Position numbers and translations under genes: made by a program. Of a stretch of DNA of 64,000 nt, positions 32,078 through 51,976 are shown one piece after another; the stretch's first letter is position 1; each line of letters begins with the position of its first letter. This DNA is from Stutzerimonas stutzeri (GTDB taxonomy: Bacteria > Pseudomonadota > Gammaproteobacteria > Pseudomonadales > Pseudomonadaceae): contig NZ_JAMOII010000013.1 of NCBI RefSeq assembly GCF_024448985.1, forward strand, positions 1 to 64,000, given 5' to 3'. The notes beneath the pieces are model-generated. The model was given only the letters and a program-made list of their open reading frames with translations, did not search any database and was not told the DNA's origin.

Positions 32078-32833
32078 TCAGCGCTTTTTCGCGGCTTTAC
32101 CGGCCTTTCCTAAAATGTGCGAAAACACTGCATGCAAGTCATCCGAGGCGCTGTCTTCGTCGAGGTTGAGCTTGCTATCGATGTGATCCATGTGGTGCAG
32201 CATCAGGCTCACCGCTTTCTCGCTGTCGCGCGCGGCGATGGCGTCGATCAGTTGGTTGTGCTCGTCATACGAGCAATGCGAGCGGTTACCGCTTTCGTAC
32301 TGGGCGATGATCAGCGAGGTCTGGGATACCAGGCTGCGCTGGAAGCTCACCAGCGGGGCGTTCTTCGCCGCCTCGGCCAGCTTCAGGTGGAACTCGCCCG
32401 AAAGCCGAATACCGGCGCCACGATCACCACGGGCGAAGCATTCCTGCTCATCGATTACCATCTGCCGCAATTCGGCGAGCTGCTCGCTAGTGGCATGCTG
32501 CACTGCGAGCTCAGTGATTGCCCGCTCCACCATACGCCGCGCAAAGAATATCTGCCGAGCCTCATCGACGCTCGGACTAGCGACCACCGCACCACGGTTT
32601 GGGCGTAGCAGCACAACTCCTTCATGAGCCAGCCGCGATAGCGCACGCCGGATGATGGTGCGACTCACGCCAAAAATCTCCCCCAGCGCTTCTTCGCTGA
32701 GCTTGGTACCTGGGGCCAGTCGTTGCTCGAGGATAGCGTCGAAGATGTGAGCGTAAACGATGTCGTCTTGGGTTCCGGTCCGGGCCTTGCCGTTTCGTGT
32801 CGGCTTTTTTAGAGGCTGCAGCTGTTCGTTCAT
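32078..32833 (-). CDS. GntR-family (FCD) transcriptional regulator of purine catabolism
   Basis: The 251-residue protein has a GntR winged helix (residues ~25-90; LSEEALGEIFGVSRTIIRRALSRL) and an FCD C-terminal domain with candidate metal-ligand histidines (FHLKLAEAA; HCSYDEHNQLIDAI; LMLHHMDHI). Its place between guaD and the purine permease matches the regulator in the P. aeruginosa cluster. A TTGTGCACAA palindrome overlaps the -35 region of its own promoter, and related palindromes precede several neighbouring purine genes. It is therefore probably an autorepressor relieved by a purine intermediate. The ligand and direction of control are inference. The Lys-rich C-terminus (GKAGKAAKKR) is unusual but short. 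Confidence 0.88.
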   Translation of the reverse strand: MNEQLQPLKKPTRNGKARTGTQDDIVYAHIFDAILEQRLAPGTKLSEEALGEIFGVSRTIIRRALSRLAHEGVVLLRPNRGAVVASPSVDEARQIFFARRMVERAITELAVQHATSEQLAELRQMVIDEQECFARGDRGAGIRLSGEFHLKLAEAAKNAPLVSFQRSLVSQTSLIIAQYESGNRSHCSYDEHNQLIDAIAARDSEKAVSLMLHHMDHIDSKLNLDEDSASDDLHAVFSHILGKAGKAAKKR

Positions 32834-32931: not shown

Positions 32932-32943
32932 ATTGTGCACAAT
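32932..32943. promoter_or_regulatory. TTGTNNACAA operator in the gntR promoter
   Basis: The perfect 12-bp palindrome ATTGTGCACAAT overlaps a minus-strand promoter with -35 TTGATT (32946-32941), 17-base spacer and -10 TTTTAT (32923-32918). This placement fits autorepression of the GntR regulator. Confidence 0.7.
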
Positions 32944-33061: not shown

Positions 33062-33071
33062 TTGTATACAA
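33062..33071. promoter_or_regulatory. TTGTNNACAA operator in the purine permease promoter
   Basis: The perfect palindrome TTGTATACAA lies between a plus-strand -35 TTGCAA (33053-33058) and -10 CATAAT (33075-33080), spaced 16 bases. A repressor here would block the promoter of the AzgA-type permease. The ~365-base intergenic region contains this site and the gntR-proximal one; I see no gene. Confidence 0.68.
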
Positions 33072-35922: not shown

Positions 35923-35934
35923 ATTGTACACAAT
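35923..35934. promoter_or_regulatory. TTGTNNACAA-type operator upstream of the HIU hydrolase gene
   Basis: ATTGTACACAAT (arms ATTGT/ACAAT) is located about 115 bases upstream of the HIU hydrolase start within an AT-rich promoter-like stretch. It belongs to the same word family as the gntR operator. The rest of the 35811-36154 interval holds no gene. Confidence 0.62.
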
Positions 35935-36061: not shown

Positions 36062-36091
36062 TTTACAAACTGCAAAACGTTTTGTATACAA
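36062..36091 (+). promoter_or_regulatory. puuE promoter with overlapping TTGTNNACAA operator
   Basis: A -35 TTTACA (36062-36067) is followed after 17 bases by -10 TATACA (36085-36090). The palindrome TTGTATACAA (36082-36091) covers the -10, an ideal repression position. It would control puuE-uraD and perhaps allA-puuD. Confidence 0.68.
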
Positions 36092-38260: not shown

Positions 38261-38410
38261 GCGTCCGATTGTTACCGAGGGCCATCCCGGCGCGGCTGAC
38301 GTGCACAGCCGACACCGGACATGCGTTTTCAGAACAAACGAGACACCTGCGACGAGTCGAATAAGAAGAAACATCGGTTGGTACGCCAGCCGTGCAAAGA
38401 GGTAATTATC

Positions 38411-39664
38411 GTGGAAGCACATCTGACCGAATGGCTGAACCTGAGTATTCGCTGGATTCACATGATCGTCGGCATCGCCTGGATCGGTGCATCGTTCTAC
38501 TTCGTCTGGCTGGAAAACAACCTTAACCGTGCCAACCCGCGAGATGGCCTGTCCGGCGATCTTTGGGCGATCCACGGCGGTGGTATTTACCACCTGGAAA
38601 AATACAAACTCGCGCCTCCGCAAATGCCGGAGAATCTGCACTGGTTCAAGTGGGAGGCCTATACCACCTGGCTGTCGGGCGTCGCCCTGCTGATGGTGGT
38701 CTACTACCTCAACCCCAGTTTGTACCTGGTCCTGCCTGGCAGCGGCATGTCCCCTGCTACAGCGGTGGCCATCGGCTTCGGCTCGCTGATCGTCGGCTGG
38801 TTCATCTATGACCTGCTTTGCGACTCGCCGCTGGGCAAGAAGCCAGCGCTGCTCGGCCTCGTCCTGTTCGTTCTGGTGATCGCCGCGTGCTGGGGCTACT
38901 CGCAGATCTTCAGCGGTCGCGCTGCCTACATCCATACCGGTGCACTGATCGGCACCATCATGGTCGGCAACGTGTTCCGCATCATCATGCCGGCCCAGCG
39001 CGCGCTGGTCGCCGCCATCGAGCAGAACCGCACGCCCGACCCGCTGCTGCCGGCCAAAGGCCTGCTGCGCTCGCGTCACAACAACTACTTCACCCTGCCG
39101 GTGCTGTTCATTATGATCAGCAACCACTTCCCGAGCACCTACGGCAGCCAGTACAACTGGTTGATCCTGGCTGCACTCGGCGCGTTGTCGGTACTGGCTC
39201 GCCATTACTTCAACACCCGCCACGACAGCAACCGCTTCGCCTGGGCACTACCTGCTGCGGCAGTCGGCATGATTTGCCTGGCCTTCGTGCTGTCGCCGAA
39301 TCGTCAACCCGCTGCACCCAACCTGGCCGCCACCTCCCCGGAGCAAGCGAGCATGTCGGCGCAACAGAGCGGTACTGCCGAGGCCGAGACCGTGGCCGGC
39401 AACAGCGAGTTCGCCAAGGTCAAGCAGGTAATCGACGAACGCTGCACCGTTTGCCACGCAGCCCAGCCGAGCAGCCCGCTATTCAGCGCGCCACCCGCCG
39501 GGGTCATGTTCGACACGCCCGAGCAGATCAAACTGCAGGCTGCGAAGATTCATGCGCAGACCGTCGCCAGCCAGATCATGCCGCTGGGTAACATGACCAA
39601 CATGACCCAGGAAGAGCGCGACCTGCTCGGCGCCTGGATCGACAAGGGCGCGTCGATCAACTGA
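38411..39664 (+). CDS. puuD: Membrane urate hydroxylase PuuD with C-terminal cytochrome c domain
   Basis: The 417-residue protein has about eight transmembrane helices of the urate-oxidase N-terminal type (IRWIHMIVGIAWIGASFYFVWLE; RSRHNNYFTLPVLFIM; ISNHFPSTYGSQYNW). A Pro/Ala-rich linker and a C-terminal cytochrome c domain with CTVCH (345-349) follow. Such proteins replace soluble uricase: urate becomes 5-hydroxyisourate and electrons leave by the haem domain to the respiratory chain instead of to O2 as H2O2. I chose GTG 38411 with GAGG upstream. A terminator follows directly. Confidence 0.92.
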   Translation: MEAHLTEWLNLSIRWIHMIVGIAWIGASFYFVWLENNLNRANPRDGLSGDLWAIHGGGIYHLEKYKLAPPQMPENLHWFKWEAYTTWLSGVALLMVVYYLNPSLYLVLPGSGMSPATAVAIGFGSLIVGWFIYDLLCDSPLGKKPALLGLVLFVLVIAACWGYSQIFSGRAAYIHTGALIGTIMVGNVFRIIMPAQRALVAAIEQNRTPDPLLPAKGLLRSRHNNYFTLPVLFIMISNHFPSTYGSQYNWLILAALGALSVLARHYFNTRHDSNRFAWALPAAAVGMICLAFVLSPNRQPAAPNLAATSPEQASMSAQQSGTAEAETVAGNSEFAKVKQVIDERCTVCHAAQPSSPLFSAPPAGVMFDTPEQIKLQAAKIHAQTVASQIMPLGNMTNMTQEERDLLGAWIDKGASIN

Positions 39665-39703: not shown

Positions 39704-39834
39704 GTTCCCAGCCCTTCACTCACGAATAGCCGTAACAGGGTTCTGCCCTGCCAGAATCACAGCTCGAAAATCGGCCTCGCACGTTCAGCGGGGCCACGCG
39801 ACATCCAATAACAAAAGCGTCCGAGGTGTTTTGC

Positions 39835-41184
39835 ATGAACGATGTAACCCAGCGGGAAACCGCGCCCGTTACAGAAAAGCAGCTGCCTTTGCTGCAGATG
39901 CTGCTGGTGAGTTTTCAGCACGTACTGCTGATGTATGGCGGGGCCGTCGCCGTGCCCCTGATTGTCGGCCAGGCAGCCGGTCTCTCTCGTGAGGAGATCG
40001 CTTTCCTGATCAATGCCGATCTGCTGGTGGCGGGCATTGCCACGATCGTTCAATCCATGGGGATCGGTCCGGTCGGCATTCGCATGCCGGTAATGATGGG
40101 CGCCAGCTTCGCTGCGGTCAGCAGCATGGTTGTCATGGCCGGCATGCCTGGCGTAGGAATGACAGGTATCTTCGGCGCCACCATCGCTGCCGGCTTCTTC
40201 GGACTGCTGATCGCGCCTTTCGTCTCCAAGATTGTCCGCCTGTTTCCGCCGCTGGTGACCGGTACGGTGATCACCGCCATTGGCCTATCGCTATTCCCCG
40301 TGGCGGTGAACTGGGCCGGCGGCGGCAGCACCACTGGCCAATTCGGCGCCCTGCCCTACCTCGGCGTAGCAGCTGCGGTGCTGACCGTGATTCTTCTGAT
40401 CAATCAGTTTATGCGTGGCTTCTGGGTCAACGTCTCGGTACTGGTGGGCATGGCGCTGGGTTACGTGCTGGCGGCCAGCCTGGGGATGGTCGATTTGTCG
40501 GGCATCAGCTCGGCGCCGGCGTTCCAAGTGGTCACGCCGAATCACTTCGGCGCGCCGCAATTCCTCCTCGCGCCGATTCTGTCTATGTGTCTGGTGGTGG
40601 TGATTATCTTCGTCGAGTCAGCCGGCATGTTCCTCGCGCTAGGCAAGATCACGGGACAGGACGTCGACCCCAAGCAGCTGCGCCGCGGTCTGCTGTGTGA
40701 TGCCGGAGCAACTTTCTTTGCCGGCTTCATGAACACCTTCACGCATTCGTCCTTCGCGCAGAACATCGGTCTGGTGCAGATGACCGGCGTGCGTAGCCGC
40801 TACGTGACTGCGGTTGCGGGACTCTTCCTCATCAGCCTGAGCCTGCTGCCAAAGGCCGCGTTCATGGTAGCCTCGATTCCCGCAGCGGTATTGGGCGGTG
40901 CAGGCATCGCCATGTTCGGCATGGTCGCAGCCACGGGCATCAAGATCCTGCAGGAAGCCGATATCGGTGACCATCGCAACCAGCTATTGGTCGCGGTGAG
41001 CATCGGTCTAGGCATGGTGCCGGTGGTTCGCCCCGAATTCTTCGCGCATCTGCCGCATTGGATGGAGCCCATCACCCACAGCGGAATCGCCGTAGCCACC
41101 ATCAGCGCTGTGACGCTGAATCTGCTGTTCAATGTACTCGGCGGGCCGGAGCGCAATGCGCTGACCGGTGCGACTCAACACTGA
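39835..41184 (+). CDS. NCS2-family urate/xanthine permease (UacT-like)
   Basis: The 449-residue, ~14-helix protein has NCS2 hallmarks: QHVLLMYGGAVAVPLIVG, the conserved VESAGMFLALG region, NTFTHSSFAQNIGLVQMTGVRSRY (the family signature) and GMVAATGIKILQ. The short N-terminus and the FAQNIG/TGVRSRY form resemble the urate and xanthine transporters (UacT/XanQ group). Next to puuD, urate is the most plausible substrate. The ATG at 39835 has GAGG eight bases upstream. Confidence 0.88.
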   Translation: MNDVTQRETAPVTEKQLPLLQMLLVSFQHVLLMYGGAVAVPLIVGQAAGLSREEIAFLINADLLVAGIATIVQSMGIGPVGIRMPVMMGASFAAVSSMVVMAGMPGVGMTGIFGATIAAGFFGLLIAPFVSKIVRLFPPLVTGTVITAIGLSLFPVAVNWAGGGSTTGQFGALPYLGVAAAVLTVILLINQFMRGFWVNVSVLVGMALGYVLAASLGMVDLSGISSAPAFQVVTPNHFGAPQFLLAPILSMCLVVVIIFVESAGMFLALGKITGQDVDPKQLRRGLLCDAGATFFAGFMNTFTHSSFAQNIGLVQMTGVRSRYVTAVAGLFLISLSLLPKAAFMVASIPAAVLGGAGIAMFGMVAATGIKILQEADIGDHRNQLLVAVSIGLGMVPVVRPEFFAHLPHWMEPITHSGIAVATISAVTLNLLFNVLGGPERNALTGATQH

Positions 41185-41359: not shown

Positions 41360-41391
41360 ATTGTGCACAATAGTTAAATTAATTGTTTAAC
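41360..41391. promoter_or_regulatory. TTGTNNACAA operator plus a second AT-rich dyad upstream of the second NCS2 permease
   Basis: ATTGTGCACAAT (41360-41371) is identical to the gntR-promoter palindrome. It is immediately followed by the dyad GTTAAA-N7-TTTAAC (41373-41391). A possible promoter TTTAAC (41386-41391) / TATAGT (41410-41415) has an 18-base spacer. The remaining bases of the 41185-41502 gap show no gene. Confidence 0.65.
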
Positions 41392-41502: not shown

Positions 41503-43017
41503 ATGGCAGGCTTGACCATGACCGCAACCGAATCCAGGAGCGGTGACGCTCCCAACCAGGACCTGATCTATCAACTCGAGGATCGCCCGGGTCCGCTTCC
41601 CGCCACCTTCGCCGCCGTCCAGCACGTGCTGGCCAGTTTCGTTGGCGTCATCACTCCAACCCTGATCATCGGCAGCGTGCTTGGCCTGGGCGAGTACGTG
41701 CCCTATCTGGTGAGCATGGCGCTGTTCGTGTCCGGCCTCGGCACCTTCATTCAAGCCAAACGAATTGGCCCAGTCGGCGCTGGCATGCTCTGCCTGCAAG
41801 GCACCAGTTTCGGCTTTCTCAGCGTGATCCTAGCGGCGGGCTTCATCGTCAAGGGTCGCGGTGGCAGCCCGGAAGAAATCCTGGCCACTCTGTTCGGTGT
41901 CGGTTTCTGCGCAGCATTCGTCGAAATCGCCGTCAGTCAATGCATAAATCGACTGCGCAGAATCATCACGCCGGTGGTTACCGGCACCATCATTAGTCTG
42001 ATGGGTCTGTCGCTGATTAAAGTTTCGATGACCGATATTGCTGGGGGGTACGGGGCTGAAAATCCCGGTGCGCTACCGAATCTGATGCTGGCCGGGCTGG
42101 TACTCGGCACCATCATCTTGCTGAACCGTTTTGGTTTCCCCCTGCTGCGGCTATCGGCAGTGATCGTGGCACTGGCCGTCGGTTACTTTGCCGCCTGGAT
42201 GATGGGCATGGTTGATTTTTCCAGCCTCGCCACGCTTCCAGCGGTCAGCGTGCCGCAGCCGTTTAGGTTCGGCTTCGCCTTCGACTGGATGGCGTTCATC
42301 CCAATCGCGGTCATCTTTTTGATCACCCCACTGGAGACGGCCGGCGACCTGACCGCCAACTCGATGATTTCGCGCCAGCCGGTCAAGGGCCCGCTCTATT
42401 TGAAGCGAATCAAGGGCGGCATTCTCGGTGACGGCTGCAGCTCGCTGTTGGCCGCCACCTTCAACAGCTTGCCGATGACCACATTCAGCCAGAACAACGG
42501 CGTGATTCAGCTGACCGGCGTTGCCAGCCGCCATGTAGGGCTGTACATCGCTGGCATCCTGATTCTGCTGGCATTGTTTCCTGCGGTTGGTGGCGTGCTG
42601 CAGTTGATGCCCAAGCCGGTACTCGGTGGCGCCACGCTGATCATGTTCGGTACCGTCGCCATCGCTGGGATCAAGATCCTTGCCGAAGCGGGCCTGAACC
42701 GTCGCAACATGCTCATCGTCGCCGTCTCACTGGGTCTCGGACTGGGCGTCGCCGCAGTGCCGGATGTGCTGAGCAACTTGCCTGATGTGTTGAAGAATAT
42801 CTTCGGCTCGCCGATCACCATCGGTGCCTTCAGCGCAATCCTGCTCAATTTCTTCCTGCCCCGCGAACCGGAAGAAATGGACGACTATGACCCCGACAAC
42901 CTGATCGAGGATTCGGTTGGCACCAATACCTTGGCAGTCAACATCCCGGATTACTCCAAGGACACAAAGAAGGCCACCAGCAACGATACCTCAGCGCACC
43001 TGACACCAACGGGCTGA
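41503..43017 (+). CDS. NCS2-family xanthine permease (XanP-like)
   Basis: The 504-residue protein has 14 likely helices with AVQHVLASFVGVITPTLIIG, LETAGDLTANSMIS and the family signature TFSQNNGVIQLTGVASRHVG. It also has an acidic C-terminal tail of ~50 residues (EEMDDYDPDN onward). The longer N- and C-termini and TGVASRHVG resemble the XanP-type subgroup. Xanthine or a related oxopurine is the likely substrate. Two ATGs (41503, 41518) are possible; neither has a strong ribosome-binding site. The operator upstream suggests control by the GntR regulator. Confidence 0.87.
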   Translation: MAGLTMTATESRSGDAPNQDLIYQLEDRPGPLPATFAAVQHVLASFVGVITPTLIIGSVLGLGEYVPYLVSMALFVSGLGTFIQAKRIGPVGAGMLCLQGTSFGFLSVILAAGFIVKGRGGSPEEILATLFGVGFCAAFVEIAVSQCINRLRRIITPVVTGTIISLMGLSLIKVSMTDIAGGYGAENPGALPNLMLAGLVLGTIILLNRFGFPLLRLSAVIVALAVGYFAAWMMGMVDFSSLATLPAVSVPQPFRFGFAFDWMAFIPIAVIFLITPLETAGDLTANSMISRQPVKGPLYLKRIKGGILGDGCSSLLAATFNSLPMTTFSQNNGVIQLTGVASRHVGLYIAGILILLALFPAVGGVLQLMPKPVLGGATLIMFGTVAIAGIKILAEAGLNRRNMLIVAVSLGLGLGVAAVPDVLSNLPDVLKNIFGSPITIGAFSAILLNFFLPREPEEMDDYDPDNLIEDSVGTNTLAVNIPDYSKDTKKATSNDTSAHLTPTG

Positions 43018-43091: not shown

Positions 43092-43895
43092 ATGAACTTC
43101 AAACTCGCTCCTCTTTCGCTGGCGCTGGCCGGCAGCCTGCTTGCCGCTCCGGCCTTCGCCGAGATGCATTGGCAGAACAACAGCCTGACGTACCTGTACG
43201 GCAAGGATTTCAAGGTCAACCCACCGATCCAGCAGACGATCACGTTCGAGCATGCCAGCGGCTGGAGTTGGGGCGACATGTTCCTGTTCGTCGACAACAT
43301 CTGGTACAACGGCGTCAGTGGCGGTGATGGACATACCTACTACGGCGAATTCAGCCCACGCCTATCGCTGGGCAAGATGACCGGTCAGGATATGTCCTTC
43401 GGCCCGATCAAGGACGTTCTGATTGCCGCTACCTACGAGCGCGGCGAGGACCGCAACCGTAACTACCTGCTCGGGCCGGCCGTCGACCTGTCTGTTCCTG
43501 GTTTCGATCGTTTCAATGTCAATGTCTATTACCGCAAGCCCGACGGCATTACCGGCAACCCCGGCGGCCAGTGGCAGATCACCCCGACTTGGGCGATGAC
43601 CATTCCGGTCGGTAAGTCCGATATCCTGTTTGACGGCTACATCGACTGGGTAGTCAACGATGCCGGCTCCGAGAGCCGCGGCGATTTCGTCTCGAAACAC
43701 CTGCACATCAACCCGCAGATCAAATACGACCTGGGCAAGGCGATGGACGGTGAACCCGGCAAGCTCTACGTGGGTATCGAGTACGACTACTGGGCCAACA
43801 AATACGGCATCGAGGACGGCGGGCCTCTGAGCGAGAACGTCGTCGGCCCAACCGACCAAAACACCTTCAGCCTGCTGGTGAAGGCGCACTTCTGA
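43092..43895 (+). CDS. Tsx-like outer-membrane nucleoside/nucleobase porin
   Basis: The 267-residue precursor has a signal peptide ending APAFAE. The mature protein is a beta-barrel with alternating aromatic strands, many Trp/Tyr residues (NSLTYLYGKDF; WGDMFLFVDNIWYNG) and the C-terminal aromatic signature KAHF expected for outer-membrane proteins. It resembles Tsx-family nucleoside channels (DUF5020-like). It follows the XanP-like permease by 74 bases and is probably cotranscribed, so it would supply purines or nucleosides to the periplasm. Confidence 0.82.
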   Translation: MNFKLAPLSLALAGSLLAAPAFAEMHWQNNSLTYLYGKDFKVNPPIQQTITFEHASGWSWGDMFLFVDNIWYNGVSGGDGHTYYGEFSPRLSLGKMTGQDMSFGPIKDVLIAATYERGEDRNRNYLLGPAVDLSVPGFDRFNVNVYYRKPDGITGNPGGQWQITPTWAMTIPVGKSDILFDGYIDWVVNDAGSESRGDFVSKHLHINPQIKYDLGKAMDGEPGKLYVGIEYDYWANKYGIEDGGPLSENVVGPTDQNTFSLLVKAHF

Positions 43896-44095: not shown

Positions 44096-46027
44096 TCACA
44101 ACTTGAAGCTTCCCATCTGCCGGCTCAGGTCGTCCGCCAGGCGACTCAACGCGTGGCAGTCCTCGCGGCAGCCCTGTACATCACTGGCGGTCGCTTGGGC
44201 GAGGTCGGCGATGCCCTGGACGTTGCGAGTGATTTCTTCGGTCACGCTGCTCTGCTCTTCGGTCGCTGCCGCCACTTGGGCATTCATGTCGCTGATCGCT
44301 TCCACCTGCTCGGTGATCGCGTTCAATGATTGACCGGTACGCTGGCTGGCCTGCACACCGGTGCCGGTGGCTGCTTGCCCGGCATGCATCGAGCTGACAG
44401 CATTGTCCGCACCGCTCTTGAGACCCTGAATCATCTGCTGGATCTCATCGGTCGATGCCTGGGTGCGGCTGGCCAGCGTACGCACCTCATCGGCGACAAC
44501 CGCAAAACCGCGCCCCATCTCTCCGGCACGTGCCGCTTCGATGGCGGCGTTAAGCGCCAGCAGATTAGTCTGCTCCGAAATGCTGCGGATCACCGCCAAC
44601 ACTTTGTCGATGGATGCAACCTGCTGAGCAAGGTCGGTCACCGATTCAGCGGCACGACCGATCTCACCGGACATTTTTTCAACGTGCGCGATGGACTCAC
44701 CGACTACGCTGCCCGCTAGCAGCGCTTCGTCACGCGCACCCTGCGACGCCTGTGCCGCACTACTGGCGTTACGAGCGATCTCCTGCACCGTCAGGCCCAT
44801 TTCGTTGACGGCCGTGGCGACCATGTCGGTCATCTCGTTCTGGCGCTCGGCACGGGTTGCGGTGTTGTCGACCACTTCCGCCACCTGCCCCACCGCGGTA
44901 CGCAACTGCTGGCTGGTACTCAGCACGTCGCCGATGAGGCCGCGCAGACTGCCAATGAAACGGTTGAAACCACGTGCCAGATCACCCAGCTCATCGGCAC
45001 GGCTCTCGTCCAGCCGACGGGTCAGGTCGCCGCCACCGCCACCGATTTCCACCAGCGCCGAGGTCACCTGACGGATAGGCCGAACCAGCCCGCGTGCCAG
45101 CAGCACCACCAGCCCTAGGAAGAAGAGCGCGATACACGCGGCGATCAGGCTGATGGTCCACAGCGTGCGTCGCGCTTCACCGAAGATCTCCGCCTCGGGA
45201 ACCTCGCTTACCAATAACCAGCCCAAGCCTTCGATCGGTTGAGCCACTGCAAGGATGACCTCGCCGTCACGCTCGAAACGTATCGCCTTGTTGCCGCCAG
45301 CAAGCAGTTCCTGGGCCGCTTGCGCACTGGTCAAGGTGCGAAGCTCGGTACGATCATTGTGCTCGGTAGCCGGATGGACCTTGACCCGGCCATCGCTGCC
45401 GACCAGATAGACATTCCCACGCTCGCCGAAACGGAAATTGCTGATCAGCTCGGACATGCTTTTCAGGCTGTACCCTAGCCCCGCCACGCCGAGCGTCTTG
45501 CCGCCGGAACTGATGCGTTGATTGATGAACAGCGTTGGCTGGCGTGAGGCCTTGTCGATGTCGATCTCGATGCGCTGTTCGATATTGCCGTCGATCAGGC
45601 TGTAGAACCAACTGTCGGCAGCAGCACCGCGGTTGAGCGTACGCGACAGGCCCGTCTCGGAGTAGTAGTTGCCGCTCTCCAGCACCACGACCGAGGTCGT
45701 CAGCGCATTCTGCTGCATCTTCACGCCGTCGAGGTAGCGACTGATCGCGGCCGCCCGGTCCGCACTCTCGCCATCGCGCAACCACTCCTGCACGAAGGTA
45801 TTACCGGCGATGCCGCCCGTCGCGGTGATAGGCTCCGCCAGGGTGCGTTGGATATCGTTACGGATCGCGGTGACGTTGGCTGGCAGCGCTTCTCCGATCA
45901 GATAGCGTTCTGCCAGACGGTTGACCGCCGAAGAATAAACGGCGATTACGATCAGAATGCTTGTGAGCAGGGCCGCCCCCATACTTATGATCAACTGCCA
46001 CTGAATACTGCGTCGCATGAAAGACAT
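44096..46027 (-). CDS. Methyl-accepting chemotaxis protein with periplasmic dCache sensor
   Basis: The 643-residue receptor has TM1 (~11-31), a ~250-residue periplasmic dCache domain, TM2 (~290-312), a HAMP domain and a cytoplasmic signalling domain with the hairpin tip [19 protein letters not shown]. The sensor has DSWFY (138-142), EIDID (154-158), FINQR (167-171) and GVAGLGYSL (180-188). These match the equivalent parts of the sensor in the divergent cyclase gene. There is no CheR-tethering pentapeptide; the C-terminus ends SFKL. Position at the end of the purine block suggests a purine ligand, like P. putida McpH, but this is inference. Confidence 0.9.
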
Positions 46028-46216
46028 GGAGGTATCTCGCTTTGTTTTTTCTTAACGTACACATTTAATTGCTGAAATGTATACGAAATATTAGCTTCTA
46101 GAGCTTAAATGGCTATCGGCCATGTTTTCGATGCCTTTAGATACCGTCCGGCGGCTCGGCAATTGCGCTCGGGCTAAGCGCCTCGCCAGCATTAGTCGGG
46201 CTCACAAGGGGAATGG

Positions 46217-47677
46217 ATGTATCAACCGAATCTGAAGCAGACCACGCTGCTGACGTTGCTTGCCTTCATCATCGGGCTAGGCTTCTTGATCGCGACCATC
46301 GCCAATTACTTCGCGTCACGTGACACCATCCGCCACAGCATCATCGGCACCGAGCTTCCCTTGACGGCAGACGTGATCTCCCTGGAGCTGCAAAAGGAGC
46401 TGGTCAAGCTGGTTCAGGTCTCTTCCGCCATGGCCGACGATCCGTTACTGCTCGACTGGGTGGATCAGGGTGAGCGCAACACGAAGCTGATCACTCGCTA
46501 CCTTCAAGCCATCAAGAAGCGTTACGACACTTCAAACGCCTTCTTCGCCTCTGATCGCTCGCAGATCTACTACACCGATGATGCACACCAGCCCATGCGG
46601 CCCGATGAGCCGGCGCACCACTGGTTCTACCGTTTCGAAGGTGCCGGGACGCCTTGGGAAGTCGTCGTGGATGTCCGGCGTCTGACCTTGTTTCTCAATC
46701 ATCGAATGACAGCAAGTGATGGCTCGTTCCTCGGTGTGGCCGGGGTTGGTATGAGCCTGGATCGCATGCGTCATTTAATGGATACCTATCAACGGCGCTA
46801 TCAGCGCACTATCTACTTCGTCGATAGCCAGCAGAACGTCGTCGTAACCGGTAGCGAAGCCGGCTCGGAAGATATTCCGCGCGGTGCTCATCTGGGCGAT
46901 ATCCCTGCGCTGCACGGCCTCAAGCAGCAATTGCGCGAACTGCGTACCGGTTCGTTCCTCTACCGGAACGACGGCGAGCAGCATTTCATCAACATCCGCT
47001 ACATCCCTGAATTGAACTGGTATCTGATGGTGGACAAGCGCGAAAGCAACGTCATGGCGCCAGTACAGCGCACCTTATGGATCAATCTGCTGATCGGATT
47101 CAGCGTCATGGTGATAGTGCTCGGGCTGGTGGGCTCGATCAGCCGCCGCTATTTGCAACGCATCGAAGCCATGGCCATCCACGATGCGCTAACCGAGTTG
47201 CTCAACCGGCGCGGCTTCGGCCTGGTCGCCGAGCAGGCGATGCTTGAAGCAAAACGCCAGCGTAGCGACCTTTGCGTACTGATCTTGGATCTCGATCATT
47301 TCAAGACATTCAACGATACCTACGGCCACCTCGGCGGCGACTTTCTCTTGCGCAGCTTCGCCAGGCTACTGGCCCGGCAAATACGCCAGAGCGACTTGAT
47401 ATCGCGCTGGGGCGGCGAAGAGTTCGTGATCATGTTCAAAGACACCGAACTGGCCACCGCGCTGGCGCTAGCGGAGAAAATCCGTGCAGCCACCGAGGCT
47501 GCAACATTCGACTTCGAAGGCACGCCATTGCGAGTGACGGTCAGCATAGGCGCGGCCCAACTGTTACCGGGCGGTAACCTGGAGTCGCTATTGGGTGACG
47601 CCGATCGGGCCCTGTATCGGGCGAAGAACGGCGGACGCAACCAGGTCTGCAGCGCAGCGGGCACAGCCGACAGGTGA
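46217..47677 (+). CDS. Diguanylate cyclase with periplasmic dCache sensor
   Basis: The 486-residue protein has TM1 (~12-32), a periplasmic dCache domain with HHWFY (134-138), VDV (150-153), FLNHR (159-163) and GVAGVGMSL (173-181), TM2 (~288-308) and a GGDEF domain. The active site is GGEEF (399-403) and the product-inhibition site RQSD (390-393) is intact, so it should make c-di-GMP with feedback control. Its sensor aligns with that of the divergent chemoreceptor, implying a common or related ligand. The ATG at 46217 has AAGGGGA upstream. Confidence 0.92.
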   Translation: MYQPNLKQTTLLTLLAFIIGLGFLIATIANYFASRDTIRHSIIGTELPLTADVISLELQKELVKLVQVSSAMADDPLLLDWVDQGERNTKLITRYLQAIKKRYDTSNAFFASDRSQIYYTDDAHQPMRPDEPAHHWFYRFEGAGTPWEVVVDVRRLTLFLNHRMTASDGSFLGVAGVGMSLDRMRHLMDTYQRRYQRTIYFVDSQQNVVVTGSEAGSEDIPRGAHLGDIPALHGLKQQLRELRTGSFLYRNDGEQHFINIRYIPELNWYLMVDKRESNVMAPVQRTLWINLLIGFSVMVIVLGLVGSISRRYLQRIEAMAIHDALTELLNRRGFGLVAEQAMLEAKRQRSDLCVLILDLDHFKTFNDTYGHLGGDFLLRSFARLLARQIRQSDLISRWGGEEFVIMFKDTELATALALAEKIRAATEAATFDFEGTPLRVTVSIGAAQLLPGGNLESLLGDADRALYRAKNGGRNQVCSAAGTADR

Positions 47678-47694
47678 TCATCGCCACCGATGCG

Positions 47695-48513
47695 CTAGTT
47701 GCTGGCGGGCTCCTTGGCCTTCTGTCGCTGCAGAAACTCGATTTTCCACTGCTCCATGCCGATGTATTCCGATGACAGGTTCGCCTCCACCTGATGCTTG
47801 GCTTTAAGCGCGGCGACGGCGGGCTGCTGGATCTTGAGGTAGCGGTCGAGATGCTCGATCAGTTCGGGATGATCAAGGCTGGATAGGTTGAAGGTGCTTC
47901 GTGTGTGCGGCAAATCGGCATCAAAGACCAGCGCTCCCGGCTTGGCGCGCACGTTGTTCAAGTAATGCGCCGCCACCACCACGTTGTAATAGGCACCATC
48001 GCTATCCTTGAGCAGTGCCTGACGCACCATTCGCGGCAGGTTCTCGCTACTGACCAGCAAAATCTGGTTGGCTGCGACCCGGTCCTCGTAGCCCCAGGGC
48101 GTCCAGCCATCGACCACCGCTAACCGCCTGAGTTCATCGATACCTCGCCCCACGCGCCGCGGCGCCACCATCACACCATCGACATAACTAACGACCGCTT
48201 GGCTGTAGTGCAGCCGATGACCAGATTTAGCGGGTCCGGACCAGTTGGGATTATCGGGATACTTCGCATCGACACGGCCGTCCAGCAGCGCAGGCAACAG
48301 CTCATCTGCGGGTAACACCTTGTATGTCAGACGCACACCGCTATACGCGGCGAAACTGTCCAATAATTCTCGGGCGAAGCCCCCGTAGTTGCCTTTCGCA
48401 TCGCCGCTGTAGTGCGGCATGAACGCTGCCTGCTCGACGCCGATTACGTAGGTTTGCTCGGCGGCTACAGGCACTGAAAGCGCCAGCAAGGCGACCGCAA
48501 GAAATTTCTTCAT
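47695..48513 (-). CDS. Orphan extracellular solute-binding protein (family 3 type)
   Basis: The 272-residue precursor has a signal peptide ending VPVAAEQ and a bilobed family-3 binding fold: YVIGVEQAAFMPHYSG, GGFARELLDSFAAYSGVRLTY and LPALLDGRVDAKYPDN. No permease or ATPase gene is adjacent. It is convergent with the diguanylate cyclase (17-base gap). Such orphan binding proteins can present ligands to receptors or act with distant permeases. AAGGAG precedes the ATG at 48513. A TTGTGCACAA palindrome lies ~120 bases upstream. Confidence 0.82.
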   Translation of the reverse strand: MKKFLAVALLALSVPVAAEQTYVIGVEQAAFMPHYSGDAKGNYGGFARELLDSFAAYSGVRLTYKVLPADELLPALLDGRVDAKYPDNPNWSGPAKSGHRLHYSQAVVSYVDGVMVAPRRVGRGIDELRRLAVVDGWTPWGYEDRVAANQILLVSSENLPRMVRQALLKDSDGAYYNVVVAAHYLNNVRAKPGALVFDADLPHTRSTFNLSSLDHPELIEHLDRYLKIQQPAVAALKAKHQVEANLSSEYIGMEQWKIEFLQRQKAKEPASN

Positions 48514-48635: not shown

Positions 48636-48645
48636 TTGTGCACAA
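48636..48645. promoter_or_regulatory. TTGTNNACAA palindrome between the orphan binding-protein gene and the TetR gene
   Basis: The perfect 10-bp palindrome TTGTGCACAA matches the gntR operator core. It could serve either divergent gene and would extend the purine regulon. Confidence 0.55.
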
Positions 48646-48678
48646 AGACTTAAGTATTTGTTCACAAATACACGGTTT

Positions 48679-48763: not shown

Positions 48764-49387
48764 ATGTCCAGTATCCGCGAGCGCAACAAAGAATTGATCC
48801 TGCGCGCTGCCAGTGAAGAATTCGCCGAAAAGGGCTTCGCCGCCAGCAAGACCAGCGACATCGCCGACCGCGCCGGGCTGCCCAAGCCCAACGTTTATTA
48901 CTACTTCAAGAGCAAGGAAAACCTCTATCGCGAGGTGCTCGACAGCATTGTCGAGCCGCTGCTGCAAGCATCTGCCCCCTTCAATCAGCCCGGCGAACCC
49001 GCCGATGTGTTGCGCGCCTATATCCGCACCAAAATCCGGATTTCACGCGAGCACGCCTGCGCCTCTAAAGTGTTCGCAAGCGAAATCATGCATGGCGCGC
49101 CTCATTTGCCAGCCGAGCGGGCGGAGCAGCTCAACGCCCAGGCCAGCCACAACGTGGCTCGCATTCAGGGCTGGATCGATCAAGGACTGATGGCGAAGGT
49201 CGATCCCAATCATCTGTTGTTCAGCATCTGGGCTGCGACCCAGACCTATGCCGATTTCGACTGGCAGATATCCACCGTGACGGGAAAATCCTCTCTTGAC
49301 GATGCAGATTACGAAGCCGCTGCCGATACGATCATTCGTATGGTCATCAGGGGTTGCGAGGTAAAGGAAACGTCGGCCGTCAGCTGA
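48764..49387 (+). CDS. TetR-family regulator, RutR-like
   Basis: The 207-residue protein has a TetR helix-turn-helix (residues ~8-55; TSDIADRAGLPKPNVYYYFKSKENLY). Its C-terminal domain resembles RutR/YcdC, including HACASKVFASEIMHGAPHL and FSIWAATQTYADFDWQI. E. coli RutR senses uracil and thymine and controls pyrimidine and purine degradation and glutamine supply. A nucleobase-sensing role here is therefore plausible but inferred. The gene is monocistronic and divergent from the orphan binding-protein gene. Confidence 0.82.
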   Translation: MSSIRERNKELILRAASEEFAEKGFAASKTSDIADRAGLPKPNVYYYFKSKENLYREVLDSIVEPLLQASAPFNQPGEPADVLRAYIRTKIRISREHACASKVFASEIMHGAPHLPAERAEQLNAQASHNVARIQGWIDQGLMAKVDPNHLLFSIWAATQTYADFDWQISTVTGKSSLDDADYEAAADTIIRMVIRGCEVKETSAVS

Positions 49388-49555: not shown

Positions 49556-49887
49556 AGGCCTGTTGACGTATCGTTCACGGCCGCGCCGGAGCTTGTTTTT
49601 GCGCGAGACAAGGCCGCGCCCGCTCCCGGCGGGCTTGCGGCATTCACCCCATCCATGGGGATCGCACGAGGAGTGAAGTTTGGTTGTTCCAAATGAGCGA
49701 CGAGAAACGCCGCATCGCGCAAAAATAGGCCCGATCCGAAGGGTTGCGCGGCAAACAGCGCCATGCGGCGTCGCGGGACTCGGCTGGGGAACGACGCGGC
49801 CGGCCCGGGCCATGATCTGCGTCCCGCGCCTCGCCTGGCGTCATTTGGCGCAGCAACGCGGCTCGCGACGAAACGTCAACAGACCCT
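49556..49887. repeat. ~330-bp element with imperfect ~20-bp terminal inverted repeats
   Basis: Most of the 528 bases before the next gene is this element. The left end AGGCCTGTTGACGTATCGT and the reverse complement of the right end, AGGGTCTGTTGACGTTTCGT, share the core CTGTTGACGT. The interior is GC-rich with a CCGCTCCCGGCGGGC-type hairpin. It has no supported gene; short minus-strand open frames have no start signal or family. It looks like a non-autonomous mobile or dispersed intergenic repeat ending ~29 bases before a TTG start. The segment 49388-49555 holds nothing recognisable. Confidence 0.6.
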
Positions 49888-49915
49888 AGCAACGGCCTGG
49901 AAAAAGGAAATTCTT

Positions 49916-51976
49916 TTGACTGCATTGCGCAACAGCCTGTCGAGGAAATTGCTCCGTATCGTTCTGCTGTCAGCGCTCGCCGTTGGGCTGGTATTAAGCT
50001 GCGCACAGATCGTTTTCGATGCCTATAAGACTCGCCAACTGATCAATGCAGAGGCCCAGCGAATCCTGCGTATGACTCGCGACCCCTCGGCCCAGGCGAT
50101 CTACAGCCTGGACCGTGAAATGGGCGCACAGGTCATGGAAGGGTTGTTTCAGCACGAGTCGATTCATGAGGCATCGATCACCCATCCTGGCGAAGAACCT
50201 CTAGCCGACAAATCCCGCCCCCTCATATCCGCACCGACACGCTGGTTAACCGACCCGATACTCGGCCGCAGTCAGGCGTTCTCGATTCCGTTGATTGGTC
50301 GCCCCCCTTACAACGAGTACTACGGCGACCTGCGCATCACGCTCGACACCGCTCCCTATGGGGAGGAATTCATCAGTGACTCGATCGTCATCTTCTTCGT
50401 CGGCATTCTCCGTGCGCTGGCCTTGGGGCTATTGCTTTACCTGATTTACGAATGGCTGTTGACGCGACCGCTGACCAAGCTCACCGAGCACCTATCGCGC
50501 ATCAATCCCGGCCGTCCCGGCGAGCATTCACTACCGATGCCAAAGGGGCACGAGCGAAACGAGTTGGGTCTCTGGGTCGAAACCGCCAACGGCCTGCTCG
50601 CCTCCATCCAGCACAACATGCAGCTGCGCCATGCCGCGGAAAGCAGCCTCGAACGCATGACCCACTACGACTCGCTCACCGGGCTGCCCAATCGGCAGCA
50701 GCTGCAGCAACAGCTCGACAATATTCTCGGCGAGGCCGCCCGACTACAACGCCGTGTGGCCGTGCTCTGCCTGGGGCTGGACGACTTCAAAGGCGTGAAC
50801 GAGCAGTTCAGCTACCAGTGCGGCGACCGCATGTTGGTCGCGCTGGCCGATCGCCTGCGAAGCCTGAGCGGGCGTGTCGGTGCCCTTGCCCGCCTGGGTG
50901 GCGACCAGTTCGTGCTGGTGCTGTTCGGCTGCGAACAACCCTATGAGGCCGCGGAACTGGCGCAGAAGGTACTCGACGACCTGGAAAGGCCGATCACTCT
51001 CGATCAGCAAAGCATCCGCCTGCGCGCCACCATCGGCATCACGCTGTACCCGGAAGATGGCGACAGTACCGAGAAGCTGTTGCAGAAAGCCGAACAGACC
51101 ATGACCTTGGCGAAGAACCGCTCGCGCAACCGCTACCAGTTTTACGTGGCGAGCATCGACAGCGAAATGCGAACGCGCCGGGAATTGCAGAACGACCTGG
51201 CCGAAGCGGTCAAACGCAATGAATTCCATCTGGTCTACCAGCCGCAGATCGACTACCGACTGAAGCGCATCACCGGCGTCGAAGCCCTGCTGCGCTGGAC
51301 GCAGCCGGGCGGAAAGATGATTCCGCCGGACATTTTCATTCCCCTCGCCGAACAGAACGGCAGCATCATCGCCATCGGCGAATGGGTGCTCGATCAGGCC
51401 TGCCAACAGCTGAGCGAATGGCATCGGCAGGGCTTCAACGACCTGCGCATGGCGGTCAACCTCTCCACGGTCCAGTTACACCATGCCGAACTGCCGACGA
51501 CGATCAACACCCTGCTCAAAAACCACCGATTGCCGCCCGAGACCCTGGAGCTTGAGGTAACCGAGACCGGGCTAATGGAAGACATCGCCGCCGCTACACA
51601 CAACCTGCATAGCCTGCGCCGCTCCGGAGCGCTGATCGCCATCGACGACTTCGGCACCGGCTATTCCTCGCTCAGCTATCTTAAAAGCCTGCCGCTGGAC
51701 AAGATCAAGATCGACAAGAGCTTCGTGCGCGACATGTCCGCCGACGAAGGCGACACGACCATTGTCAGAGCGATCATCCAGCTGGGCAAAAGTCTCAATA
51801 TGCTGGTGATCGCCGAGGGCGTGGAAACCGCCGAGCAAGAGCGCTATCTCATCGATGAAGGCTGCAACGAAGGCCAAGGCTATTACTACAGCAAGCCCCT
51901 ACCGGGCCCTGAACTGACCGCCCTGCTTCGCCAATCCAGACGTTTCGAGCGCACGTTCAATTCAGAACCGCTTTAA
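49916..51976 (+). CDS. Membrane GGDEF-EAL protein, probable c-di-GMP phosphodiesterase
   Basis: The ~686-residue protein has TM1 (~10-30), a ~135-residue periplasmic domain, TM2, a HAMP-like linker, a GGDEF domain and an EAL domain. The cyclase site reads GGDQF, so diguanylate cyclase activity is probably lost and the domain may act as a GTP-binding regulator. The EAL domain keeps EALLRW, the NLS motif (AVNLSTVQL), DDFGTGYSSLSYL, KIDKSF and EGVET, so phosphodiesterase activity is expected. I chose TTG 49916 because AAGGAA lies seven bases upstream and the preceding frame runs through the repeat element. Confidence 0.88.
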   Translation: MTALRNSLSRKLLRIVLLSALAVGLVLSCAQIVFDAYKTRQLINAEAQRILRMTRDPSAQAIYSLDREMGAQVMEGLFQHESIHEASITHPGEEPLADKSRPLISAPTRWLTDPILGRSQAFSIPLIGRPPYNEYYGDLRITLDTAPYGEEFISDSIVIFFVGILRALALGLLLYLIYEWLLTRPLTKLTEHLSRINPGRPGEHSLPMPKGHERNELGLWVETANGLLASIQHNMQLRHAAESSLERMTHYDSLTGLPNRQQLQQQLDNILGEAARLQRRVAVLCLGLDDFKGVNEQFSYQCGDRMLVALADRLRSLSGRVGALARLGGDQFVLVLFGCEQPYEAAELAQKVLDDLERPITLDQQSIRLRATIGITLYPEDGDSTEKLLQKAEQTMTLAKNRSRNRYQFYVASIDSEMRTRRELQNDLAEAVKRNEFHLVYQPQIDYRLKRITGVEALLRWTQPGGKMIPPDIFIPLAEQNGSIIAIGEWVLDQACQQLSEWHRQGFNDLRMAVNLSTVQLHHAELPTTINTLLKNHRLPPETLELEVTETGLMEDIAAATHNLHSLRRSGALIAIDDFGTGYSSLSYLKSLPLDKIKIDKSFVRDMSADEGDTTIVRAIIQLGKSLNMLVIAEGVETAEQERYLIDEGCNEGQGYYYSKPLPGPELTALLRQSRRFERTFNSEPL

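Follow-up and report, generated by a model that had tools for sequence, protein, structure and literature searches.

A divergent chemoreceptor and diguanylate cyclase with related dCache sensors beside a purine-catabolic gene block of Stutzerimonas

Do a chemoreceptor and a diguanylate cyclase that are encoded back to back at the end of a purine-catabolic gene block both respond to purines? We addressed this question in a stretch of 64,000 nucleotides from Stutzerimonas stutzeri (assembly GCF_024448985.1, contig NZ_JAMOII010000013.1, positions 1 to 64,000 of the forward strand), which is hereafter called the window. The open reading frames of the chemoreceptor (methyl-accepting chemotaxis protein, MCP; 44096-46027, minus strand; 643 amino acids) and the cyclase (46217-47677, plus strand; 486 amino acids) are divergent and separated by 189 bp. 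We consider it likely that the two genes form a purine-sensing output pair that belongs with the purine-catabolic genes of Stutzerimonas. The analysis showed homologous sensors, residues of the purine motif, catalytic motifs, linkage conserved across genomes, a promoter of the sigma-28 type, and operator-like dyads similar to those in the purine block.

Relationship and pockets of the two sensors

The original prediction regarded the periplasmic domains of the two proteins as homologous dCache sensors, and this was borne out. A single gapped BLASTP alignment joined the sensors of the chemoreceptor (45158-45940, minus strand) and the cyclase (46304-47086, plus strand) with 26% identity across 299 positions (E=2e-23) and contained all four of the motif pairs named beforehand in the expected order. 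When the whole 4.23-Mb genome was searched, the cyclase sensor had just two matches at E<=0.001 apart from itself, namely the adjoining chemoreceptor (6.6e-18) and a further McpH-like chemoreceptor encoded on a different contig (3.3e-15). Therefore, the likeness of the two sensors is far beyond chance. The second McpH-like chemoreceptor (L057; contig C1, 63574-64338) had 64% sensor identity and the motif YRWFN, and was located away from the purine block without a dyad.

A local duplication of one sensor was considered and rejected because the cyclase sensor was 36-46% identical to unlinked cyclase sensors, among the matches listed in the family sample, and 26% identical to its neighbor. In the sensor tree, MCP and cyclase sensors fell on opposite sides of one branch. 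Based on these identities and the tree, the two sensor genes were most likely joined by rearrangement. A SiaA-type sensor was also rejected; the NCBIfam SiaA matches reached 82 and 42 bits against a cut-off of 700. The same applied to the sensing of amino acids or amines (dCache_1AA or dCache_1AM), since the defining Asp is replaced by Gly in both window sensors, as in every aligned row. This Asp corresponds to D173 in PctA and D208 in McpX, and McpH has G185 (PMC11245519).

Motif residues were read from an alignment in which identical sequences were collapsed (65 rows from 96 sensor stretches plus three references), and residue numbers throughout follow McpH. The purine motif comprises Y121, R/K/H129, W140, F/Y167, and D/N169, with variants taken from Table 2 of PMC11245519. 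The full motif, as YRWFN, was present in the window chemoreceptor and in 30/30 aligned MCP rows. The chemoreceptor (Pfam dCache_1 2.4e-21, HAMP 2.9e-14, MCPsignal 2.3e-43) has a sensor with a double-Cache fold, the nearest structure being McpH (8bmv; E=1.5e-67, 44% identity over the aligned sensor). A purine ligand is supported by this closeness to McpH, the intact motif, the position in a purine locus, and operator-like sites common with the purine block. As judged from its sequence, the protein is almost certainly a purine receptor. Taxis to xanthine that depends on cheW has been reported for a plant-associated Stutzerimonas strain, and the available part of that report (PMC11045775) names no receptor; the window chemoreceptor is the obvious candidate.

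The cyclase sensor gave a Pfam dCache_1 match (1.7e-10) of 41.3 bits, which is under the curated cut-off of 45. Among PDB sequences, it matched McpH (8bmv, 3.3e-16) and 9b9s (7e-11), and the next match was at 0.47. A profile of the nine cyclases linked to the MCP in the genus (that of the window and eight relatives) retrieved the same entries (8bmv 2.5e-22, 9b9s 1.1e-18), followed by an unrelated receptor at 0.0035. According to their PDB titles, 9b9s and 9b9x are the Halomonas titanicae chemoreceptor Htc10 with guanine and hypoxanthine; McpH and Htc10, both purine-bound chemoreceptor domains, were the only PDB sequence relatives under E=0.001. The top Foldseek match of the predicted sensor structure (pLDDT 86.7) was 8bmv (1.7e-15), which was tied by Z score with DctB (20.3 and 19.4). 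In the tree, the cyclase sensor was on the same side as 24 cyclase sensors with the canonical motif YKWFN. We assign it to the purine group by descent because of this position and because McpH and Htc10 were its sole PDB matches below 0.001. The linked cyclases have Y121, Q129, W140, F167, and N169, and thus keep four of the five motif residues, together with D156. Canonical YKWFN was present in 24/24 rows of unlinked cyclases of this type from other members of the family, and the cyclase of one further Stutzerimonas genome (G001) was intermediate, with H at position 129. The likeliest origin of the cyclase sensor is therefore a canonical purine sensor in which one contact has changed. A purine-type pocket is the likeliest reading, and the protein is probably a modified purine receptor.

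The output domain of the cyclase (47174-47644, plus strand, Pfam span; Pfam GGDEF 1.8e-43) contains a GGEEF active site and an RxxD inhibitory site (RQSDLISRWGGEEF). Both sites were kept in the window cyclase, the eight linked relatives, and G001. A GG[DE]EF signature with an RxxD I-site marks a catalytic diguanylate cyclase, and this activity is predicted for the window protein.

Linkage to the purine block across genomes

The prediction that the pair directly follows a purine block was confirmed. The block holds xdhA, xdhB, and xdhC and genes for guanine deaminase, the allantoinase PuuE, OHCU decarboxylase, ureidoglycolate lyase, and urate oxidase (38321-39664, plus strand; Pfam Urate_ox_N 1.5e-129). 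It also holds two NCS2 xanthine permeases (39826-41184 and 41503-43017, both plus strand; each TIGR03173 pbuX over the cut-off) and, as the final gene, a Tsx-type nucleoside channel (43092-43895, plus strand; Pfam Channel_Tsx 6.8e-12).

Linkage was surveyed in 56 Stutzerimonas genomes with thresholds of 64% identity for the MCP and 55% sensor identity for the cyclase. The MCP was present in 33 genomes with 34 copies in total, of which 29 were within 5 kb of a tsx match. The cyclase was present in 10 genomes and adjoined the MCP in nine of them (9/56 of the genus genomes). The linked pair was within 5 kb of tsx in eight of the nine; the ninth (G027) lies near a contig end. In G001, the tenth cyclase genome, the cyclase was 1.2 kb (match to match) from tsx and the MCP was elsewhere; by eye, a terminator-like stretch separates the cyclase from tsx. 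Three of the nine linked genomes are near-identical at the locus (95-100% at the cyclase sensor), and the cyclase sensor of S. stutzeri 28a39 is 96% identical to that of the window. The gene order in linked loci whose flanks were read was tsx-MCP-cyclase-solute-binding protein-TetR, and MCP-only block loci differ simply by lacking the cyclase.

The solute-binding protein gene in this order (47695-48513, minus strand) is convergent with the cyclase gene and encodes a family-3-like periplasmic protein (Pfam SBP_bac_3 9.2e-06), with 25.9 bits slightly under the cut-off of 26.4. It stood beside the cyclase in 9/9 linked loci (the window and eight others) versus 3/8 block loci without the cyclase. 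It is followed in the window by a RutR-like TetR gene (48764-49387). Approximately 2 kb past the cyclase, a GGDEF-EAL protein, possibly a phosphodiesterase of cyclic di-GMP (c-di-GMP), is encoded at 49763-51976; this gene had a match of at least 88% in 7/9 linked loci and 3/6 MCP-only block loci.

In a class sample of 274 genomes, sensor matches at E<=1e-20 were found in 17, and the genome of the window alone had more than one; no second linked pair was found in this sample at that threshold, its own genome aside. In the family sample (298 genomes), an unlinked cyclase and an MCP occurred far apart in one genome, for example, in G141, G169, and G172, among the matches listed.

We also read the MCP neighborhoods in 50 of the 109 MCP genomes from outside Stutzerimonas. 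These were hand-picked across genera, not random, and include several close relatives; they are not 50 independent cases. The MCP followed xdhABC on the same strand in four loci (L096, L097, L098, and L105), all from one related genus, and the other 46 had no purine-set gene within the stretch fetched. The xdhA-xdhB-xdhC/MCP order is a second genomic tie of the McpH-type receptor to purine catabolism. An opposite-strand GGDEF gene was within 1.5 kb of the MCP in 21 of these 50 Pseudomonadaceae loci. In 20 of the 21 (L099, L103, L108, L109, L111-L120, L122, L123, L126, L128, L133, and L139), it encodes one orthologous GGDEF protein, mostly of 373-388 amino acids, with several predicted membrane spans and without a dCache match; the twenty-first (L102) encodes a GAF-GGDEF protein.

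Promoter and operator-like dyads

The chemoreceptor is preceded by a sigma-28 (FliA)-type promoter, TAAA-N15-GCCGATAG (46113-46139, minus strand), which has 0/12 mismatches to the consensus TAAA-N15-GCCGATA(A). All nine linked genomes had a promoter of this type at a distance of 81-94 bp from the MCP start, with 0-3 of 12 mismatches, which places the chemoreceptor gene in the flagellar (sigma-28) regulon as judged by sequence. Since the window contains four sigma-28-type sites with up to two mismatches, it is the conserved place that carries weight.

Between this promoter and the MCP start codon, paired TGTNNACA-like dyads lay 21-23 bp apart in 9/9 intergenic regions. The pair in the window is imperfect (two core mismatches) and consists of a weak operator-like half at 46055-46064 and a second half (ATGTATACGA) at 46077-46086. 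The dyad pair was matched by 0 to 28 of 1000 shuffles per region (G026 being the weakest) and by 8/462 control windows of 200 bp. Exact TTGTNNACAA occurred seven times in the window, against a mean of 0.38 and a maximum of 2 in 100 shuffles. All seven sites were within 32.9-48.7 kb; the whole genome had 17, and a reversed control pattern occurred 28 times genome-wide. Dyads were located between gntR and a permease gene (TTGTNNACAA, 32933-32942; TTGTATACAA, 33062-33071), upstream of puuE (TTGTACACAA, 35924-35933; TTGTATACAA, 36082-36091), upstream of the second xanthine permease gene (TTGTGCACAA, 41361-41370), and between the solute-binding protein and TetR genes (TTGTGCACAA, 48636-48645; TTGTTCACAA, 48658-48667). 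The last two, which are exact and 22 bp apart, precede the solute-binding protein gene and are common to the RutR-like TetR gene in the window.

Outside the genus, a dyad with at most one mismatch was near the MCP start in 32/50 loci, versus 120/4000 random stretches. Of three Stutzerimonas MCPs that were read away from the block, two also kept an exact dyad; the second copy in the window's genome was without one. Because it is present at MCPs outside the genus and outside the block, the dyad tends to travel with the MCP gene. We rejected the dyads as a sign that the cyclase itself is purine-regulated, since they go with the MCP and were not detected at the cyclase of G001.

The likeliest protein to bind the dyads is a GntR/FCD regulator (32078-32833, minus strand; Pfam FCD 1.8e-23, GntR 1.3e-17), which we propose as the regulator of the block; it had a match in 54/56 genus genomes, one with an internal stop. 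The RutR-like TetR protein is a possible alternative.

Alternative explanations, mechanism, and known systems

Several observations weigh against a purine-sensing output pair. The original prediction implied comparable pocket residues; this held for the core, which is present in both sensors. However, Gln replaces the basic residue at position 129 in 9/9 linked cyclases, a difference from the chemoreceptor pocket, and the full five-residue motif is not present in the cyclase sensor because Q129 is absent from the Table 2 variants (R, K, and H). Moreover, V occupies position 154 and approximately five hairpin residues after D156 are missing, again in 9/9. Conserved adjacency was seen in nine of the ten genus genomes that carry the cyclase at the 55% threshold, but it is restricted: 24 of the 33 MCP-bearing genomes had no adjacent cyclase, and three more distant cyclases, at 40-42% (G002, G014, and a second one in G001), were not beside the MCP.

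There is a serious possibility that both proteins are purine-type sensors for different compounds, with the chemoreceptor reading urate- or xanthine-like purines and the cyclase another purine, a nucleoside, or a pathway intermediate. The linked cyclases all keep the W140/F167 stacking and Y121/D156/N169, combined with the changes at 129, 154, and the hairpin. Residue 129 of McpH binds an exocyclic oxygen of urate; R129, N154, and G159 all contact such oxygens (PMC11245519), and these contacts are lost in the cyclase. In addition, Q129 is invariant among nine sensors at 61-96% identity to that of the window, which suggests selection. On the other hand, positions 154 and 159 also vary in aligned chemoreceptors and canonical cyclases, and the dCache_1PU proteins tested so far already differ in their ligands with the same motif (PMC11245519), so that motif differences predict little.

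It is unlikely that purine sensing is confined to the chemoreceptor, with a cyclase that has lost purine binding and answers some other small molecule or the adjoining solute-binding protein. The change at motif residue 129 and the solute-binding protein gene beside the cyclase in 9/9 linked loci, as opposed to 3/8 block loci without it, would fit this explanation. However, all nine linked cyclases have the same pocket core, the sole PDB sequence relatives of the sensor are purine-bound, and the G001 cyclase lies in a purine block without a solute-binding protein gene and has H129, a published variant (PMC11245519). That the cyclase landed by mcpH accidentally and the order was inherited without functional coupling is quite improbable: the 24 MCP-bearing genus genomes without an adjacent cyclase, the at least six changes needed for cyclase presence on the MCP tree (9/30 rows), and the lack of another linked pair in the class sample are in line with it, but linkage persists down to 61% sensor identity, the cyclase remains in the purine block where the MCP has gone (G001), and a different GGDEF gene adjoins the MCP in 21/50 other Pseudomonadaceae loci.

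For the purine-sensing output pair, we infer which ligands bind, whether the cyclase response is positive or negative, which protein acts as regulator, and that one compound is common to both sensors. Tsx would let purines through the outer membrane, giving both sensors access to them. Uric acid, xanthine, hypoxanthine, adenine, or a similar purine would bind the membrane-distal pocket of the chemoreceptor and cause attraction and swimming to the source. A purine or a close derivative would bind the cyclase sensor and change the level of c-di-GMP; one ligand may drive both sensors. By analogy with VC2224, whose response to inosine and theophylline was shown in cells (PMC11245519), the cyclase would most likely raise c-di-GMP, with settling where purines are. 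In Pseudomonas aeruginosa, a metabolic effect of the opposite sign on c-di-GMP is known (PMC11197132); therefore, in any measurement of the response, sensing needs to be distinguished from metabolism.

Pseudomonadaceae mcpH genes repeatedly adjoin cyclase genes, which differ between Stutzerimonas and other genera, and on a more speculative reading, which we hold to be rather doubtful, the coupling of purine taxis to c-di-GMP may recur as a unit. On this reading, the block would carry its own matched sensors with different pockets: the MCP would read one purine (approach) and the cyclase another purine or nucleoside (stop), tuned by the R-to-Q change and the short hairpin.

The signal is unknown for most chemoreceptors and cyclases. 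Because the pair is linked, and one sensor has an intact motif while the other carries one conserved substitution, it can be tested directly if a single nutrient governs both swimming and settling and which residue of the pocket determines the specificity for purines. The original prediction of a coupled purine module as new was too strong. A 2024 publication (PMC11245519) already described the sensor family, its occurrence in chemoreceptors and cyclases, and the activation of a cyclase by purines; the pair is useful and testable, and not a new class. In the literature covered by our searches, we found no report of the linked pair, the YQWFN variant, or mcpH beside cyclase genes.

Among known systems, McpH of P. 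putida KT2440 (8bmv) resembles the window chemoreceptor in its sensor fold and all five motif positions. The window protein differs in having N for D at 169, which is the form in most McpH homologues (PMC11245519), E at 154, and K at 159, and its gene stands at the end of a purine-catabolic block. PctP (PA1608) of P. aeruginosa works alike in mediating purine chemotaxis; however, its sensor is a four-helix bundle with an unrelated fold (PMC10653921). Htc10, one of the two PDB sequence relatives of the cyclase sensor, is a chemoreceptor, not a cyclase, and has 23% identity to the window cyclase model. A close parallel to the cyclase is VC2224 (R6, YKWFN), a dCache_1PU diguanylate cyclase activated by inosine, guanosine, and theophylline (PMC11245519). 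Similar to VC2224-type cyclases, the window cyclase joins a purine-group dCache sensor with four of the five motif residues to a GGDEF domain. In contrast to dCache_1PU cyclases, it has Q rather than R, K, or H at position 129 and a hairpin shorter than in the aligned canonical cyclases, and its gene is divergent from an mcpH-type gene.
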